Below, piece after piece: positions 9,157-53,854 of a DNA stretch of 64,000 nucleotides. The stretch spans positions 1-64,000 of the forward strand of contig NZ_JWIF01000058.1 of assembly GCF_000812685.1 (NCBI RefSeq), read 5' to 3'. A model generated the notes under the pieces. That model was not told where the DNA came from. It saw only the letters and a list, made by a program, of their open reading frames with translations, and made no database searches. The position numbers and the translations under genes are program-made. This DNA comes from Halocynthiibacter namhaensis. GTDB lineage: Bacteria > Pseudomonadota > Alphaproteobacteria > Rhodobacterales > Rhodobacteraceae. Each line of letters begins with the position of its first letter. Positions within the stretch are counted from its first letter, which is position 1.

Positions 9157-10089
9157 ATGCCACACCAACCCCAAATCACCCTATCCTCTTGGATCATGAT
9201 CGCGCTTTTGGGTGTGACTTGGGGGGGGACATTCATGGTGATGGAAATCGCCCTACGTGGCATCACGCCTTTCTGGCTCGCCACTGGCCGCATTGGCTTT
9301 GCCGCGCTTCTGCTCAGCGCAATCTGGGGTCTGCGTGGATTCAAACTGTTTGTCACACCGCCGGATCGTGCCGCCACCATATCCCTGATCGTGGTCGGGC
9401 TGTTTTCAACGGCGGTGCCTTTCATGTTGCTATCATGGGGACAACAATATGTGACCTCGGGATTCACCGGGGTTTCCATGGCGGCCATTGCCTTGATGAT
9501 CCTGCCCATGGCACATTTCTGGGTTCCGGGCGAACGCATGACCTGGCGCCGCGGGCTTGGCATGTGCATAGGCTTTGTTGGCGTCTACCTGCTTGTCGGC
9601 GGCACGGCCATGAACAGTTCCGGCAACAGCCTGGAATGGGCCGGGCGCATCGCCGTCCTTCTGGCGACACTTTGCTATGCGGGCAGTTCCATCATCGTGC
9701 GCCGCCTGCCCCCGATTGATTCTGTGGGACTTGCAGCAATGCTTTTGCTGATCGGTTGTGTGCTGGTCGTCCCCGCCGCCTTGATCATCGAAGGTCTGCC
9801 CCCTGCGATCTCAGCCGAAACCTTGTTCTGGGTCGCCCTGTTGGGGCTGATCCCAACGGCCGCGGCCAACCTGCTGCGGGTTGTCGTGATCCGCACCGCA
9901 GGACCTGTTTTCATGTCATTGGTGAACTACCAAGTCCCGATTTGGTCCGTCATGTTCGGGGCGTGGATCCTATCCGAGGACCTTCCCCCCAGCCTATTCA
10001 CCGCCCTTGCGTTGATCCTTGCAGGTGTCGGCCTGTCGCAATACGGCGCATTACGGCGGTTGTTTTTACCCAAAACGACCTCAAACTGA
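9157..10089 (+). CDS. EamA-family (drug/metabolite) transporter
   Basis: A 310-residue inner-membrane protein with about ten hydrophobic segments in two EamA repeats, opening with the family motif LLGVTWGGTFMVMEIALRGI. Such carriers export or import small metabolites and amino acids. It starts only three bases after the cupin stop, so the two are translationally linked. It may move the substrate or product of the Rieske oxygenase; that is inference. It is convergent with glmM, with 46 bp between the stop codons. Confidence 0.9.
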   Translation: MPHQPQITLSSWIMIALLGVTWGGTFMVMEIALRGITPFWLATGRIGFAALLLSAIWGLRGFKLFVTPPDRAATISLIVVGLFSTAVPFMLLSWGQQYVTSGFTGVSMAAIALMILPMAHFWVPGERMTWRRGLGMCIGFVGVYLLVGGTAMNSSGNSLEWAGRIAVLLATLCYAGSSIIVRRLPPIDSVGLAAMLLLIGCVLVVPAALIIEGLPPAISAETLFWVALLGLIPTAAANLLRVVVIRTAGPVFMSLVNYQVPIWSVMFGAWILSEDLPPSLFTALALILAGVGLSQYGALRRLFLPKTTSN

Positions 10090-10135
10090 TCAACGAAGCT
10101 GAACGCCTTCGCAAGGTGGCATTTTAGGCGAAGCC

Positions 10136-11476
10136 CTAAAGATTGTCCTCAATCAAGGCGCAAAGCCCTTCGACCACGCGCTTCAACTGAACCGCATCCG
10201 TGCATTCCGCCATGACCCGGATCAGGGGTTCTGTGCCGGACTTTCGGATCAACAAGCGACCGTTTTCAGCTAACTCAGCCTCAGCCTCAGCAATCGCAGC
10301 CTGCACAACATCAACCGCCAATGGATCTTGCCCCGCCTGATATCGCACATTTTGCAACAGTTGCGGTACGGTCTCAAAACTGCGCGCCAAAGCACTCGCG
10401 GGTTTGCCAGTACGCACCATCTCCGCCACGAATTGCAACCCTGCCGCCAAGCCATCACCCGTGGTGCCATAATCCGTCATCACGATATGACCCGATTGCT
10501 CGCCGCCAAGGTTAAACCCTTCCGCACGCATCGCGGCCACGACATGACGATCCCCAACGGCAGAACGATGCAGGGCGATCCCCTTGTCCTTCAGGAAATG
10601 TTCCAACCCAAGGTTCGACATTACGGTTGCCACCAACGTGTTTTTGTTCAAACGCCCTTCCGCAGCCCAACGCGTCGCCAAAAGCGCCATCAATTGATCC
10701 CCGTCTGCAACCTGACCCTTTTCATCAATCACGATGATACGGTCGGCGTCACCATCCAAACACAATCCCACATCCGCCCCATGGGCGACCACCGCCTCAG
10801 CCGCAGTCTGGGGATGCGTTGATCCGCAATTATCATTTATATTGAAGCCATTAGGGGAAACGCCCAAGGGAATTACCTCTGCGCCCAACTCCCATAGCAC
10901 CAGAGGTGCCGCACGCCAGGCCGCGCCATTTGCACAATCCAAAACGATTTTAACACCGGACAGCGACAGATCAGATGGGAATGTCATTTTCACATTTTCA
11001 ACGTAGCGACCCGTTTCGTCATCCACGCGCTTTGCACGCCCAATATTCGCGGGCTGTGCCGGTTGAATATCCTCGTGCAGCAAGGCTTCAATCGCGGCTT
11101 CATCCTCATCCGACAGCTTAAACCCATCGGGGCCAAAGAACTTGATACCATTGTCATGATGGGGGTTATGCGATGCGGAAATCATAATGCCCAAATCAGC
11201 GCGCATGGATTGCGTCAGATAGCCCACAGCCGGTGTTGGCGTCGGGCCAAGCAACAGCACATTCATGCCCGTGCTGGTTAGGCCCGCAGTCAAAGCGTTC
11301 TCAAACATATAGCCAGAAAGGCGTGTATCCTTGCCAATCACAACCCGGTGGCCGTTGGTGCCATCTGTTCGAAAATGACGCCCCGCCGCTGCACCCAATT
11401 TCAACGCCATCTCAGCTGTCATTGGCCAAGTATTCGCCAGTCCACGTACGCCGTCGGTTCCAAAAAGCTTGCCCAT
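10136..11476 (-). CDS. glmM: Phosphoglucosamine mutase
   Basis: 446 residues from the ATG at 11476, preceded by GAGGG; two extra codons upstream would need TTG. It interconverts glucosamine-6-phosphate and glucosamine-1-phosphate for UDP-GlcNAc, hence peptidoglycan and lipopolysaccharide. Motifs: [10 protein letters not shown] at the N-terminus, the phosphoserine loop [12 protein letters not shown] with the active Ser at residue 102, the metal loop DGDADR near residue 240, and the sugar/phosphate loop [14 protein letters not shown] at the C-terminus. It follows folP on the same strand after a 31-bp gap, an arrangement common in proteobacteria. Confidence 0.97.
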
Positions 11477-11507
11477 AATCAACCCTCACCCGTCTTTTAT
11501 TATTATA

Positions 11508-12515
11508 TTAGTACGTCGCTGCAAAAAGCGTCATCGCTTGCCGCGTCGGTGCAACATCATGTGCTCGTATTATCTGAATTCCTTGCGAAATGGCAGATAA
11601 GGCCACGGCAATCGATCCAGGTGCGCGGTTCTCTGCTTCTGGCGCATGACCAAGAGTGCCAATGAACTTCTTGCGTGACGCCCCCAAAAGCACAGGCACA
11701 CCCAAGCCATGGAACAGGCTAAGCCCCTGTAGAAGCGTAAGATTATGTTCAAGCGACTTCCCAAACCCAATACCCGGATCCGAGATAATTTGATCCCGTG
11801 AAATGCCCAATGCAACTGACGCCTCAATGCGTTCTTCAAGGAAATCATACACATCCAACAGCACGTTTTCATACTGTGGATTATCCTGCATGGTGGTTGG
11901 ATCCCCCTGCGCATGCATCAAACACACGGGTGCGCCCGCCTTGGCAGTCACCTCGGCCAATTCCGGCTCGAATGTGAACGCCGCCACATCATTGATCAAA
12001 TCCGCGCCCGCTTTCAGCGCCGCCGCCCCCACTTGGGCTTTGCGCGTGTCAATTGAGATCGGCACGTTTGACCCCGCCCGCACCGCTTCGATCACCGGCA
12101 CCGTGCGCGCACATTCCTCTGCAACAGGTACATAAGTCGCACCAGGGCGTGTGGATTCACCACCGATATCAATGATATCAGCCCCCTCAGCCGCCAAATC
12201 CAATGTGCGATCCAGCGCAGCCTGAGGGGCGTTATATTGCCCCCCGTCAGAAAAACTATCCGGGGTAACGTTCAAAATGCCCATGATCTTGGGGGCCGCA
12301 AAATTCAATCCAGCAACATCAGCACGCGGCGCGCTTAACCGGTCACGCCAGGCTTGGGGCAGCTCAGAAACATGAACAAAGCCTTGCCTGCCCTCCCGCG
12401 TCACATGTTCTGCATGTGTGAACCAGCTCCAGCCGCCAGCAAGCGCCACAGCATCCCCTGGACGCGCAGAACCAACCTGTGCCAAAGGGCGAAAATAGTC
12501 TTTTTTCAATGTCAT
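11508..12515 (-). CDS. folP: Dihydropteroate synthase
   Basis: A 335-residue folate enzyme joining p-aminobenzoate to dihydropterin pyrophosphate. Pterin-binding motifs: IMGILNVTPDSFSDGG near residue 77, DIIDIGGESTRPGA near 114, and the C-terminal LLGASRKKFIG. About 65 extra residues precede the TIM barrel; from memory such N-terminal extensions are usual in this bacterial group, and their role is unknown. AGGGG precedes the ATG. It sits between folB and glmM, forming a folate/cell-wall gene string. Confidence 0.96.
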   Translation of the reverse strand: MTLKKDYFRPLAQVGSARPGDAVALAGGWSWFTHAEHVTREGRQGFVHVSELPQAWRDRLSAPRADVAGLNFAAPKIMGILNVTPDSFSDGGQYNAPQAALDRTLDLAAEGADIIDIGGESTRPGATYVPVAEECARTVPVIEAVRAGSNVPISIDTRKAQVGAAALKAGADLINDVAAFTFEPELAEVTAKAGAPVCLMHAQGDPTTMQDNPQYENVLLDVYDFLEERIEASVALGISRDQIISDPGIGFGKSLEHNLTLLQGLSLFHGLGVPVLLGASRKKFIGTLGHAPEAENRAPGSIAVALSAISQGIQIIRAHDVAPTRQAMTLFAATY

Positions 12516-49447: not shown

Positions 49448-49777
49448 CTAGGTCTCTATCAATGCGGCCTGCACCGCGTCATCCCAGCCAAGGTGAAACG
49501 CATCACCATCCTGGATCACCGGACGGGTCATAAGTTTGGGCTTGGCCGCAAGCTGGGCATCCGCATCAGAATTCTTCAACCATTCATTCAGCGCACGCCA
49601 ATCTGACGATTTTCGGTCAACCAAACGGTCCCCAAATTCCAGCAAAAGCGCCGCCCATTCGTCATCAGACATTGGATCAGCACGCACATCACGAAACGCG
49701 ACCTCACGCCCCGCGTCTTCGAGGGTTTTGATCGCACGCTTGGTCAGCGCGCATGTCGAAATGCCGTACACAATCAT
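49448..49777 (-). CDS. ArsC/Spx-like thioredoxin-fold protein (YffB type)
   Basis: A 109-residue protein with the N-terminal MIVYGISTCALTKRAIKTLE (CxxxxR-type redox region: Cys9 with Lys/Arg following), the FRDVRADP motif and the C-terminal KPKLMTRPVIQDGDAFHLGW. This is the ArsC/Spx family; YffB-like members are glutathione-dependent reductases of unknown substrate. A true arsenate reductase role is not proven, since no ars genes are near. Confidence 0.85.
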   Translation of the reverse strand: MIVYGISTCALTKRAIKTLEDAGREVAFRDVRADPMSDDEWAALLLEFGDRLVDRKSSDWRALNEWLKNSDADAQLAAKPKLMTRPVIQDGDAFHLGWDDAVQAALIET

Positions 49778-49914
49778 GATGGTCTTCCTTACGTCGCAAT
49801 ATTGGTCGGATTAGATTACGTGCAAACGCGCCCGTTGATCAGGCGACGAACACAAAATATTCCCTGCACCCGATCAAAAATGACACCCCGTCCAAGGCGT
49901 CATCCCATCCGCAT

Positions 49915-50091
49915 TTACTTTGCGTTCTTAGAGGCTTTTTCTTCCTTGGTCAGCTTCACGCCCCAGGCGTTGTTGCTGATCCCAAGTTCAGACGGCATGG
50001 GTTTGGTTTTGCCCTGTTTCACTTCGCCGCCTTTTTTCAGGAACTCCTGGATCAAAGCATCGTCGGTGGTGGGTTTTGGAACTTGTTTCAT
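49915..50091 (-). CDS. Small conserved-looking protein of 58 residues
   Basis: ATG at 50091 to TAA at 49915 encodes a soluble, lysine-rich protein: KPTTDDALIQEFLKKGGEVK, then QGKTKPMPSELGISNNAWGV. Codon use and composition fit the surrounding genes, and the protein looks like a real conserved family member of this bacterial group (from memory). The function is unknown. It is shorter than 60 codons, so ORF searches with that cut-off would miss it. Confidence 0.72.
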   Translation of the reverse strand: MKQVPKPTTDDALIQEFLKKGGEVKQGKTKPMPSELGISNNAWGVKLTKEEKASKNAK

Positions 50092-50296
50092 CGCTGCGGT
50101 CTTCCGTGGTTACGAGTGGCGCTAGGGCGTGGTCTTAAGCATAACTTAACAGGGATCCTCAGGAAAGAAAGAGAGGATTAAGCCCCCAACACCAAGGCTT
50201 ACCGATGCGCCGATATTCGCAAGGCGACTGTCTACGGTTTTTTAATAAAAACATGTCATTCCGATAGGGCCACAGGCCTTAGACATAGGAACCAGA

Positions 50297-51718
50297 ATGG
50301 AACCGCAAGAAAGAATCGGCGTTGCACGCCTTACAAAACTAGCGTTCAACGGGGCAGATCTTGGCCCGCTGCGCGCCCAACTTCTTAGCCGCTGCATATT
50401 GGAAGGCAACGCCGAAGGCGCTTTCATGGATCTGTCGGTGATTGAACAATTGCTGGGAAATTCTCACGCGGGTCTTGAATGGCAAGCGCAGGCCTTGAAA
50501 ACCCGTCGCGTTTATAGCTCCAACAGCGAAGCCCCCAACAGTCAGATCGACAGTCAGATCGACAGCGATATCAATGGCCAAATCGACGCCCAATTCAGCG
50601 AACAGCAAAAACTATTGGTTTTCGCTGCGACCGGCCCCATGGGCTGGAACACTCCGGTTGAATTTCTTCTGCAAGGTTCGAATTATCAGATCATCACCTA
50701 TTTCCCGGATTTCGATGCCCCCCACCCTGCCGCACTTCCAGATCATGATATCGCCATTTGCGCCGCGCCCACGGATTCTGCCGCCTCTCAACACTTCATC
50801 GAAAATCTGCGTCAGCTGACCCAGAAAACCGGTGCCAAAACGCTGAATTTGCCGACGGCCACAGTCAATCTAGACCGTGACGCTCTCAGCCAGGCCGTCC
50901 CCAAAACACCTAGCCTGCGGTTCCCGAACACCACGCGCCATTCCCGCAAACAACTGAAATCATTATTGGATTCTGAACAAGAATCGCAGATTTTAAATCC
51001 CCTCGGGCAATACCCCTATATCATCCGCCCCTGTGGATCTCATGCGGGCATTGGGCTTGCGAAATTTGGGGATCGTGACGCATTGATCGCCTATCTCGAC
51101 ACCCATCAGGATCAAGAATTTTTCATTTCAGAATTCATCAATTACGCGTCCCAGTCGGATGGCGCGTTCCGAAAATACCGAATTGTCTTTGTCGACGGCA
51201 AGGCGTTCCCCTGCCACATGGCGATCTCGGATCAATGGGATCTGTGGTATATGAACGCAAAAATGGAAGGCTCGGCACATAAAAAGGCGCAGGAAGCTCG
51301 TTTCATGGACCGCTTTGAGCGCGACTTTGATCTGCGCCATCAGCAGGCTTTTTCAACGCTCACCCAGGAAATCACCCTTGATTATTTTGGCATTGATTGC
51401 GCAGAAGATCGCGATGGAAATCTGGTCGTATTCGAAGCTGACAACGCTTTGATCGTTCACGACATGGATTCCAACGCAGTTTTTCCGTATAAAAACAGAC
51501 ATATGCACCGCATATTCGCAGCATTCAGGGCAATGTTAGACAGGCATGCCACCCCCTTAGCAAAGCCGCTAAACCCCGGATCAGACAAACCCGCGCCAAG
51601 CCAGAACCCCAAGCAAACCAGCACCGACAAGGATCACGACAAGACCAATGCGCCAAGCGCTTTCCCAGACCAAATCCCGCGCCCGCGCCCCAGGATCGAC
51701 ATCCGCGAGCCAGCGTAG
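50297..51718 (+). CDS. Orphan ATP-grasp-domain protein
   Basis: A 473-residue protein. The N-terminal 70 residues look helical and TPR-like (LLSRCILEGNAEGAFMDLSV); a short repeated stretch QIDSQIDSDINGQIDAQ follows. From about residue 110 an ATP-grasp core is seen: YIIRPCGSHAGIGLAKFGDR (ATP lid), FRKYRIVFVDGKAFPCHMAI, and the metal-binding DYFGIDCAEDRDGNLVVFEA with DNAL. Such RimK-like ligases join an acid to an amine using ATP. The last 46 residues overlap a minus-strand gene by 138 bp and are low-complexity, so the C-terminus may be a read-through. No substrate or partner is evident. Confidence 0.75.
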   Translation: MEPQERIGVARLTKLAFNGADLGPLRAQLLSRCILEGNAEGAFMDLSVIEQLLGNSHAGLEWQAQALKTRRVYSSNSEAPNSQIDSQIDSDINGQIDAQFSEQQKLLVFAATGPMGWNTPVEFLLQGSNYQIITYFPDFDAPHPAALPDHDIAICAAPTDSAASQHFIENLRQLTQKTGAKTLNLPTATVNLDRDALSQAVPKTPSLRFPNTTRHSRKQLKSLLDSEQESQILNPLGQYPYIIRPCGSHAGIGLAKFGDRDALIAYLDTHQDQEFFISEFINYASQSDGAFRKYRIVFVDGKAFPCHMAISDQWDLWYMNAKMEGSAHKKAQEARFMDRFERDFDLRHQQAFSTLTQEITLDYFGIDCAEDRDGNLVVFEADNALIVHDMDSNAVFPYKNRHMHRIFAAFRAMLDRHATPLAKPLNPGSDKPAPSQNPKQTSTDKDHDKTNAPSAFPDQIPRPRPRIDIREPA

Positions 51719-51952
51719 CGCATAGCGATGTGTGCGATCAATCCGCGGCAAATCCACAAGACGCGCCAATCGGGGATTGCGGGCAAGTTCAACCGCCTCA
51801 GACATATAGGCCAGATCCCGGCGCAATCCGCGCGGCAGCATTCGCCCAGCCTTGTTCACCCGCGCGCCAAGGGTCCTCCCCCGCAGGCGCAAACCACGCC
51901 CCAGCGCATCAAAAACATCTTCGGCTTTCTGTTCAATCTCAGACGGGTTCAT
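51581..51952 (-). CDS. Small membrane-anchored basic protein
   Basis: A 123-residue protein with a basic soluble part (RGLRLRGRTLGARVNKAGRM, many Arg) and one C-terminal transmembrane helix (residues 98-122, AWRIGLVVILVGAGLLGVLA). Function is unknown. The gene overlaps the 3' end of the plus-strand ATP-grasp gene by 138 bp. Codon composition supports this strand for most of the overlap. Confidence 0.7.
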   Translation of the reverse strand: MNPSEIEQKAEDVFDALGRGLRLRGRTLGARVNKAGRMLPRGLRRDLAYMSEAVELARNPRLARLVDLPRIDRTHRYALRWLADVDPGARARDLVWESAWRIGLVVILVGAGLLGVLAWRGFV

Positions 51953-52040
51953 CCGGGGCCTCCTGCTGATCAGAGATAGGGCACCACAAAAGGCATTTCA
52001 ACATCTGGAAACCCTGACCACGCCGCGTTACAAACACTTC

Positions 52041-52808
52041 ATGTTACATACTGTAGAATTTGGTGCGGAACACGGCGGTACACCGCTGCTTATCGCACAT
52101 GGTCTTTTCGGCTCTGCCCGCAATTGGGGTGTGATCGCCAAACGTCTGGCCGATACGCGCCGGGTCATCACCGTTGATATGCGCAACCACGGCAGCAGCC
52201 CGTTTGATCCCGCCCACAGCTATCCCGATCTGGCCGATGATCTGGCCGAAGTCATCCGCGCCACCGGCGGGTGCGCCGATGTTCTGGGCCATTCCATGGG
52301 GGGTAAGGCCGCGATGATGCTGGCGCTTGCCCATCCTGAATTGCTGCGAAAGCTGATCGTCGCGGACATCGCGCCGGTCGGATATGGTCACACGCAAACG
52401 CCGCTGATTGACGCGATGGAAACGCTTGACCTGTCTATGATCACCTCGCGCCAAGACGCCGACGCCGCCCTTACCGCATCCGTGCCGGAAGCTGGCGTGC
52501 GGGCGTTTTTGCTGCAATCGCTTGATCTGCGCACAGGTCCAAAGGCCTGGCGGCTGAACCACACAGCGCTTCGCACCCATATGGACGCCATCATCGGTTT
52601 TCCTGAGACCGCCGATCAAAGCTTCCCAGGCCCCACGTTTTTCTTATCGGGGGCCGCATCAGATTACCTGCGCCCGGAACACCGCCCGCTGATCAAATCG
52701 CTTTTTCCAGCGGCACGTTTCGCCAAGATCCCCGGTGCGGGTCATTGGCTTCACGCCGACAAACCCCGAGAGTTCGAAGCCGCCGTGCGTGTCTTCCTAG
52801 ACGTTTAA
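52041..52808 (+). CDS. Alpha/beta hydrolase, YbfF-like esterase
   Basis: 255 residues from the ATG at 52041 (MLHTVEFGAEHGGTPLLIAH); the frame extends upstream over the minus-strand gene, without support. The oxyanion region is HGLFGSARNW, the nucleophile elbow is VLGHSMGGKAAMMLAL, and the His base is in GAGHWLHADKP. It is a cytoplasmic esterase or thioesterase of unknown substrate. The ribosome site is weak. Confidence 0.88.
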   Translation: MLHTVEFGAEHGGTPLLIAHGLFGSARNWGVIAKRLADTRRVITVDMRNHGSSPFDPAHSYPDLADDLAEVIRATGGCADVLGHSMGGKAAMMLALAHPELLRKLIVADIAPVGYGHTQTPLIDAMETLDLSMITSRQDADAALTASVPEAGVRAFLLQSLDLRTGPKAWRLNHTALRTHMDAIIGFPETADQSFPGPTFFLSGAASDYLRPEHRPLIKSLFPAARFAKIPGAGHWLHADKPREFEAAVRVFLDV

Positions 52809-52822
52809 CCGGACGCTTAGGT

Positions 52823-53008
52823 TTATTTCAGCTCAAGGATCGCGCGTGTCACAAGCCAAGTCACGGGCAAGGCCACAACAGCCCCAACCAAGGCGGCATA
52901 TATGATCGGCATCATGGTGCCATAGCCCATGGTCAAAACCGCCACGACACAGGCCCCGGCAAGGGTTGTGCCAACAATAGAATATAAAGCAGATGCGAGG
53001 CGTAACAT
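52823..53008 (-). CDS. Small two-helix membrane protein
   Basis: 61 residues from the ATG at 53008, which follows AGGAAAGG. Two hydrophobic helices (SIVGTTLAGACVVAVLTMGY and MPIIYAALVGAVVALPVTWL). From memory, homologues in roseobacters are sometimes labelled CTP synthetase, a label that the sequence does not support. Function is unknown. It is convergent with the esterase gene. Confidence 0.75.
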   Translation of the reverse strand: MLRLASALYSIVGTTLAGACVVAVLTMGYGTMMPIIYAALVGAVVALPVTWLVTRAILELK

Positions 53009-53083
53009 GGGGTAACCTTTCCTGTGCAGCCCTGAAGTTGCACAAAACCTACCCCGAGTCGCGCCACGCATCTTTGATCTGTG

Positions 53084-53854
53084 TCAGGTCTTTTGGGCAT
53101 CATCTCCATATCGCTGACGATATGCAGTTATCCAACTAGGTGCTCCAGCATGCCAATGAGGCGCCGGGCCCCAAATGGTTTGTTTCACCGTATCCACCGG
53201 CCGAGGGTCCCCGTGAAACGCAACGATGCGCGCGCTATCAGGCGGCACAGAAGGTGCTACGAATAAGCCTTTACCATACCGATGGCACAGATGACGCTTG
53301 AAACTTAGAACAAGGCCTTCCGGCCAGTAAGATGGTGCATCAGCATGCGCACCCACAAAGTCCTGTTCATTCTGCCAGGTTTTCATATGGCCTTCCATGT
53401 CTTTCGCGAATGCTTCCAATACATGGGCGTTCTTGCGGATGTCATAGGAATAAACTCCGGTTCCGACCTCCTTTTCAAGTCTTTCTCGGCCCGGATACCA
53501 ACTCTTCCCCACGTTCAAAAACCTGCTGCCCTCAACCTGATCAAAGAATGGCTGCAAATCTCCAATCACCATCATATCAAGATCAATAAACAACACACGG
53601 CCAAGATCACCAATCTCATCAGAAAAAAGACTTAGCTTTCGCCAGACACCCGGCAGCTTCCATGCAGCGGGGGCCAGACCAATATCAGGAATGTCGCGCG
53701 CCTCGATCCCATCCAAAAGCCCCACACGATTGTCGGTTAGGCACACGAACCGCAAATCGCCCTGCACATTGTCGCGGCAAGCCCGGTACAGCAAGTTTAC
53801 CTCACTTGCGTCAAAGACAGTGCCCCACTTAATACATAGAATCGTGGCCTGCAT
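53084..53854 (-). CDS. Glycosyltransferase, GT8-like fold
   Basis: A 256-residue protein beginning MQATILCIKWGTVFDASEVN. The metal/nucleotide-binding D-x-D appears in GRVLFIDLDMMVIGDLQPFF near residue 90. An aromatic Trp-rich C-terminus (HWHAGAPSWITAYRQRYG) is typical of cytoplasmic sugar transferases that use nucleotide sugars. It could work in capsule or LPS synthesis. It lies between a small membrane protein gene and lepA. The acceptor is unknown. Confidence 0.75.
   Translation of the reverse strand: MQATILCIKWGTVFDASEVNLLYRACRDNVQGDLRFVCLTDNRVGLLDGIEARDIPDIGLAPAAWKLPGVWRKLSLFSDEIGDLGRVLFIDLDMMVIGDLQPFFDQVEGSRFLNVGKSWYPGRERLEKEVGTGVYSYDIRKNAHVLEAFAKDMEGHMKTWQNEQDFVGAHADAPSYWPEGLVLSFKRHLCHRYGKGLFVAPSVPPDSARIVAFHGDPRPVDTVKQTIWGPAPHWHAGAPSWITAYRQRYGDDAQKT

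Follow-up and report, generated by a model that had tools for sequence, protein, structure and literature searches.

The gene and its protein

The 64,000-nt stretch of Halocynthiibacter namhaensis DNA analysed here (the window) carries a gene for an ATP-grasp ligase that runs, at its 3′ end, into a neighbouring gene on the opposite strand (Table 1). The ligase gene is present once, at E 0.001, in its own 3.5-Mb genome. Its product consists of a TPR-like N-terminal part, a short insert of QID repeats, a pre-ATP-grasp plus ATP-grasp region and a tail past the usual end of the family.

Table 1. Features at and around the ligase gene, and related loci carrying an aminotransferase (positions refer to the window unless a locus is named)
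Feature	Position	Strand	Observation
Left block (49463-49791 and 49915-50156)	49463..50156	-	In both same-genus genomes but differently located; conserved up to 50156
Ligase ORF, 473 aa, ATG start	50297..51718	+	TPR-like N-terminus, ATP-grasp domain, read-through tail
TPR-like N-terminal region, residues ~1-75	50297..50521	+	Family profile match, predicted helices
QID-repeat insert, ~21 residues, between TPR-like and ATP-grasp regions	50534..50596	+	30-row alignment
Pre-ATP-grasp and ATP-grasp region, residues ~104-414, family-conserved	50606..51538	+	Alignments, LysX match
Tail codons past the usual family end	51557..51715	+	Homologue alignment; 51581-51718 antisense to neighbour
Right block: antisense gene, alpha/beta hydrolase (Pfam), small gene	51578..53089		76% DNA identity to both same-genus genomes from 51578
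Conserved 123-aa gene, hydrophobic C-terminus, 3′ end overlapped	51581..51952	-	Kept in same-genus genomes
Aminotransferase-variant loci, class-V aminotransferase 3′ of ligase	L050:9941-12306, L116:8299-10661, L140:8360-10739		

A preliminary description of this DNA, made from its letters only, had credited the protein with an ATP-grasp core. That core is real, though low-scoring against curated models: the protein reaches 12.7 bits with Pfam RimK (PF08443; cut-off 21) and 21.1 bits with NCBIfam rimK_fam (TIGR00768; cut-off 143.4). Placement in a known ligase family had been named as a finding that would speak against the description; we found none, and the curated Pfam and NCBIfam models do not claim the protein. 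Among 30 members chosen from the 60 loci described below, none matched an ATP-grasp Pfam model at E 0.001, one matched Pfam TPR families, and 11 matched rimK_fam at E 0.001 (best E 7.7e-6). A profile of the family itself finds LysX chain 3vpd as a distant match (E 0.0099). The window protein scores 616 bits over the full 400-residue core with an 11-row family profile, of which it is itself one row; its 10 relatives share 31-59% identity with it. A family profile also matches the N-terminus to the TPRs of O-GlcNAc transferase at E 5e-5, a value summed over several weak copies of which none is significant singly, and a low-confidence AlphaFold model (two sequences, pLDDT 41) has four helices in this region. 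The ligase is a member of an unnamed family that joins a TPR-like N-terminus to a distantly RimK/LysX-like domain.

In the 30-row alignment of the family, D367 and E380 are invariant and position 382 varies; these three are candidates for the metal-binding acidic positions of the ATP-grasp fold. Arg244 is likewise invariant, at a position presumably held by lysine in RimK-type enzymes. The QID insert is peculiar to the window protein, the other 29 rows having at most two residues at its position.

A convergent overlap at a synteny breakpoint

The ligase ORF and the antisense gene overlap convergently by 138 bp, that is, 46 codons including the stop, just as the preliminary description had it. 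The antisense gene, which had been called likely real, looks so to us, since it has equal length (123 aa) and 75-76% identity in both same-genus genomes; it matched nothing in Pfam, NCBIfam, PADLOC or PHROG. The C-terminus of the ligase had been proposed to be read-through, with a shared, conserved C-terminus in homologues as the contrary finding. Our comparison of homologue C-termini supports read-through: in the alignment of the full protein, similarity to the 10 homologues ends near residue 414, and the tail is absent from all of them. The 30-row alignment, with the window row trimmed at residue 420, shows the remaining rows ending in short stretches that, by eye, do not resemble one another. 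For the low-complexity look of the tail there is an explanation. Tail and antisense protein lie in exact complementary register, with a hydropathy correlation of -0.77, so that the polar tail mirrors an antisense protein whose C-terminus is hydrophobic. Read-through over such a distance is unsurprising in itself, because the complementary frame is open for at least 45 codons from the 3′ end in 7 of the 12 window ORFs taken as genes (the antisense gene included).

How has the overlapped DNA evolved? Between the window and L026, codon changes in the overlap are 14 silent and 9 non-silent for the antisense gene, and 3 and 20 for the tail frame; against L027, the counts are 16 and 8, and 2 and 22. 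By antisense codon position, the differences distribute as 11/2/19 (L026) and 7/2/21 (L027). By these counts, the pattern of change in the overlap is that of the antisense gene, the two same-genus genomes compared being without the ligase. We consider it very unlikely that the antisense frame has given rise to a new C-terminal extension with a function of its own. The tail frame is open and in phase, and two genomes that lack the ligase are uninformative about selection after its arrival; against this, no homologous tail exists among the 10 homologues, and the changes in the DNA follow the antisense gene, with 20 of 23 and 22 of 24 changed tail-frame codons altered non-silently.

The ligase gene is absent from both same-genus genomes, where the matches cover the last residues of the ligase only, as expected from conservation of the antisense gene there. 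Conserved blocks flank it on either side (Table 1) and positions 50157-51577 have no match in either genome. Since the flanking blocks are conserved at separate places and nothing matches between them, the ligase gene fills a breakpoint. In one of the two genomes (G002), both blocks sit on contig C12, at ~160 kb and ~238 kb with ~78 kb between them, apparently in the orientation that an inversion would leave; in the other (G001), they are on different contigs. No tRNA or direct repeat was found at the junction. Composition gives no clear sign of foreign DNA (GC 0.516 in the ligase core, 0.54 in the window). A promoter scan found no promoter-like site, and a terminator scan found six terminator-like sites vs 2.7 expected, none of them at the ligase end.

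With no shared tail, broken synteny, no ligase in the same-genus genomes and an overlap that evolves as the antisense gene, the tail probably came about incidentally, when the ligase gene was placed next to its neighbour or lost its stop there. A recent loss of the stop, as originally suggested, fits these data, and a single genome does not discriminate between rearrangement and a small frame slip. Such a slip near the family end, without rearrangement, seems to us the unlikelier course (a sequencing error would look alike). Stops at 51558 and 51570 do lie in another forward frame, after a short C run and near where homologues end; by our own estimate, however, chance alone would put an other-frame stop within 40 nt in roughly half of cases, and the synteny break in the same stretch suffices. 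By-product as it probably is, the tail makes a clear case of how convergent overlaps may originate: when a gene end comes to lie against a coding gene, the complementary frame yields a polar tail.

Could the whole gene be a decaying remnant left after transfer? It is an orphan, its insert and tail are peculiar to the window protein, and it is missing from both same-genus genomes. Yet its frame is intact, it keeps the family-invariant residues, and it shares 59% identity with a full-length relative from another genus, which makes a pseudogene quite improbable.

Relatives and their PLP-enzyme partners

The ligase is sporadic in its own taxonomic family: a match at E 0.001 occurs in 17 of 394 genomes, counting that of the window itself, and in 10 of the 17 the relatives score E 1e-54 or lower. 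The 11-row profile, at E 1e-20, matched 21 of 385 genomes of the class and 31 of 398 of the phylum. Seven plasmid records matched as well, and a scan of a genome collection with the window protein gave one relative (L004). Phage origin was considered and dropped: none of 50,697 phage records matched, viral contigs contained no relative and no PHROG was hit. A role in anti-phage defence was likewise discarded, with no PADLOC family at E 1. Loci were fetched for part of the matches (40 stretches for the class and phylum matches, four for the seven plasmid matches). Of the 16 own-family matches outside the window genome, L042 and L043 were omitted for want of a tblastn match. This gave 60 loci with an anchor, the window included, of which the 44 with a profile score of at least 290 form the core set.

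The preliminary description had called for a survey of conserved neighbours across genomes. A PLP-dependent decarboxylase accompanies the ligase at 24/44 core loci, on the same strand within 3.5 kb at 23 of them and fused at L126. These 24 loci are spread over 10 labelled families plus one Rhizobium plasmid, seven of them falling in genus g655. At three further core loci, a class-V aminotransferase stands in place of the decarboxylase (two by Pfam, the third by similarity; Table 1), which brings the loci where the ligase adjoins a PLP enzyme or is fused to one to 27/44. Many of the partner ORFs overlap by a few bases. At L126 itself, positions 9423-12077 form an 884-aa ORF hit by the ligase profile as well as the decarboxylase profile, an apparent fusion. 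The partner decarboxylase is a Pyridoxal_deC protein by Pfam in the three tested, far under the NCBIfam equivalog cut-offs.

A third, conserved protein, here called X (for example L106:10676-12325), lies on the same strand within 3.5 kb at 18/44 core loci. It had no Pfam match at E 0.01 in three tested and nothing convincing among PDB sequences (best E 0.018). On slight ground, namely that one X protein weakly hits a cysteine desulfurase-like NCBIfam family (E 0.0013) and that the X alignment contains invariant GSKF and D-x-C-Q residues, we tentatively regard X as a PLP-fold protein.

Nothing of this kind surrounds the window gene. In the window clade, 0/6 loci have the decarboxylase or X on the same strand within 3.5 kb, one of the six (L028) lying 1.3 kb from a contig end. 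L123 is likewise near a contig end, and partners may have been missed at both. Conserved neighbours among own-family loci gave nothing convincing, and X had no match in the 11 own-family carriers searched, the window genome among them. The window genome holds one decarboxylase match at E 1e-10, with near-equal best matches in both ligase-free same-genus genomes, and some window-clade relatives have a decarboxylase match elsewhere in the genome (G272, E 1e-156). The preliminary characterization of the ligase as an orphan stands in this genome, with no partner on the same strand within 3.5 kb, but does not hold throughout the family, given the PLP enzyme at 27/44 core loci.

In a 30-row tree, the closest group of the window protein consists of L004 and four orphans of its own family (support 100/98). 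Another group (92/84) is made up of decarboxylase-bearing rows, namely L124 and three from g655, and both groups unite in one 10-row clade (100/99). The own family has a second group, L032-L036 (93/93), at a separate position in the tree, which includes L035 with a decarboxylase next door. Since the window clade joins decarboxylase-bearing rows, the orphan status is likely derived, on a tree that is midpoint-rooted and weak at some deep forks.

Flagellar linkage and a proposed function

What might the ligase act on? Each of the seven core g655 loci carries an FlbT relative (by Pfam in L105) and three hook-type or hook-filament relatives, the hook names being our reading. A flagellin-like neighbour is seen in 5/7 of them, two stretches being cut by contig ends, and in genome G1065 flagellins above the Pfam cut-off lie inside the stretch concerned. 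Elsewhere, a flagellin (L125), FliD (L114) and FliK (L140) are encoded within 3 kb of the ligase. Flagellar linkage thus occurs in 4/15 labelled families among the core loci, the other loci having been checked with a few seed proteins and by eye.

In the class sample, flagellin is present in 20/21 carriers vs 215/364 non-carriers (Fisher p 0.0004), or in 19/21 vs 212/364 (p 0.0025) when flagellins over the Pfam cut-off are counted; in this association distant relatives count as carriers, matching was by eye and genome size is uncontrolled. For the window gene itself, the presence of flagellin lends no support, as 290/355 genomes of its own family have it. Both same-genus genomes possess flagellin and lack the ligase. 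No flagellar gene turned up near the window gene in an unsystematic look, and the one flagellin match of the window genome is on contig C56, the window being on C58. An estimate of chance for a flagellin within 10 kb (3/23 carriers vs 0.31 expected) was rejected as biased, some genomes having been added after flagellar neighbours had been seen.

The whole is best explained, with a probability of about 0.4, by a stand-alone TPR/ATP-grasp ligase of decarboxylase-linked origin, with flagellin as the best candidate for its ancestral client, whose 3′ end has come to lie against a convergent gene. The ligase would activate a carboxylate with ATP and join it to an amine, and the TPR-like part may dock the client protein. 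The family could have arisen as the ligase of a small PLP-decarboxylase system modifying a surface structure. In the window clade, where the partners are unlinked, the amine or amino acid might come from general metabolism, or the partner might be encoded elsewhere in the genome. Our best guess for the product of the window gene is a carboxylate-amine ligase that uses ATP and derives from a system for modifying flagellin or another surface structure.

It is also quite possible that the product is a small molecule in free form, such as an amide or a dipeptide, for which the decarboxylase supplies an amine, with the flagellar linkage being incidental. The partner resembles aromatic and diaminobutyrate decarboxylases, ABC transporter genes follow the ligase at L053 (there split in two ORFs), and a flagellar neighbour is unseen at most loci. 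The TPR-like N-terminus, however, suggests a protein client, and flagellar linkage recurs in four families. A far more specific proposal goes beyond this and is rather improbable: a new flagellin modification in which a TPR-docked ATP-grasp ligase would amide-link a decarboxylase-made amine to flagellin or its glycan, while descendants that stand alone, the window gene among them, would have been re-targeted to other clients. The family, unnamed and repeatedly accompanied by PLP enzymes and, in several lineages, by flagellar genes, offers a concrete lead to a modification or an amide product that has yet to be described. Among the matches listed in open-licence literature, no paper on this pairing of ligase and decarboxylase was found; an ATP-grasp amidoligase survey cited in PMC3765264 may describe the family.

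How does the family relate to known systems? With RimK/LysX-type ligases (TIGR00768, PF08443) it has the ATP-grasp layout in common, but the window protein falls far below the curated cut-offs and possesses a TPR-like N-terminus. Similarly, the partner shares Pyridoxal_deC with L-2,4-diaminobutyrate and aromatic amino acid decarboxylases, but remains far below the equivalog cut-offs. ATP-grasp genes have precedents in flagellin modification: one is predicted in a C. difficile flagellin modification locus (PMC5207246), and the Shewanella flagellin modification operon includes SO_3265 (SfmE), deletion of which shifts flagellin mass (PMC3765264). For normal motility, a section heading of that paper names SO_3261-SO_3264 as required and leaves out SO_3265, the ATP-grasp gene (PMC3765264). 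By its description there, SfmE is a 412-aa protein with an ATP-grasp domain, like the window family, but its operon has PseI-like and other enzymes where the window family has the PLP decarboxylase (PMC3765264). Finally, the TPR domain of FlmG, a TPR-glycosyltransferase of Caulobacter, binds flagellin (PMC7591256). Like the window family, FlmG combines an N-terminal TPR part with a C-terminal transfer enzyme; that enzyme is a glycosyltransferase instead of an ATP-grasp protein, and the TPR part spans 313 residues vs ~75 here (PMC7591256).
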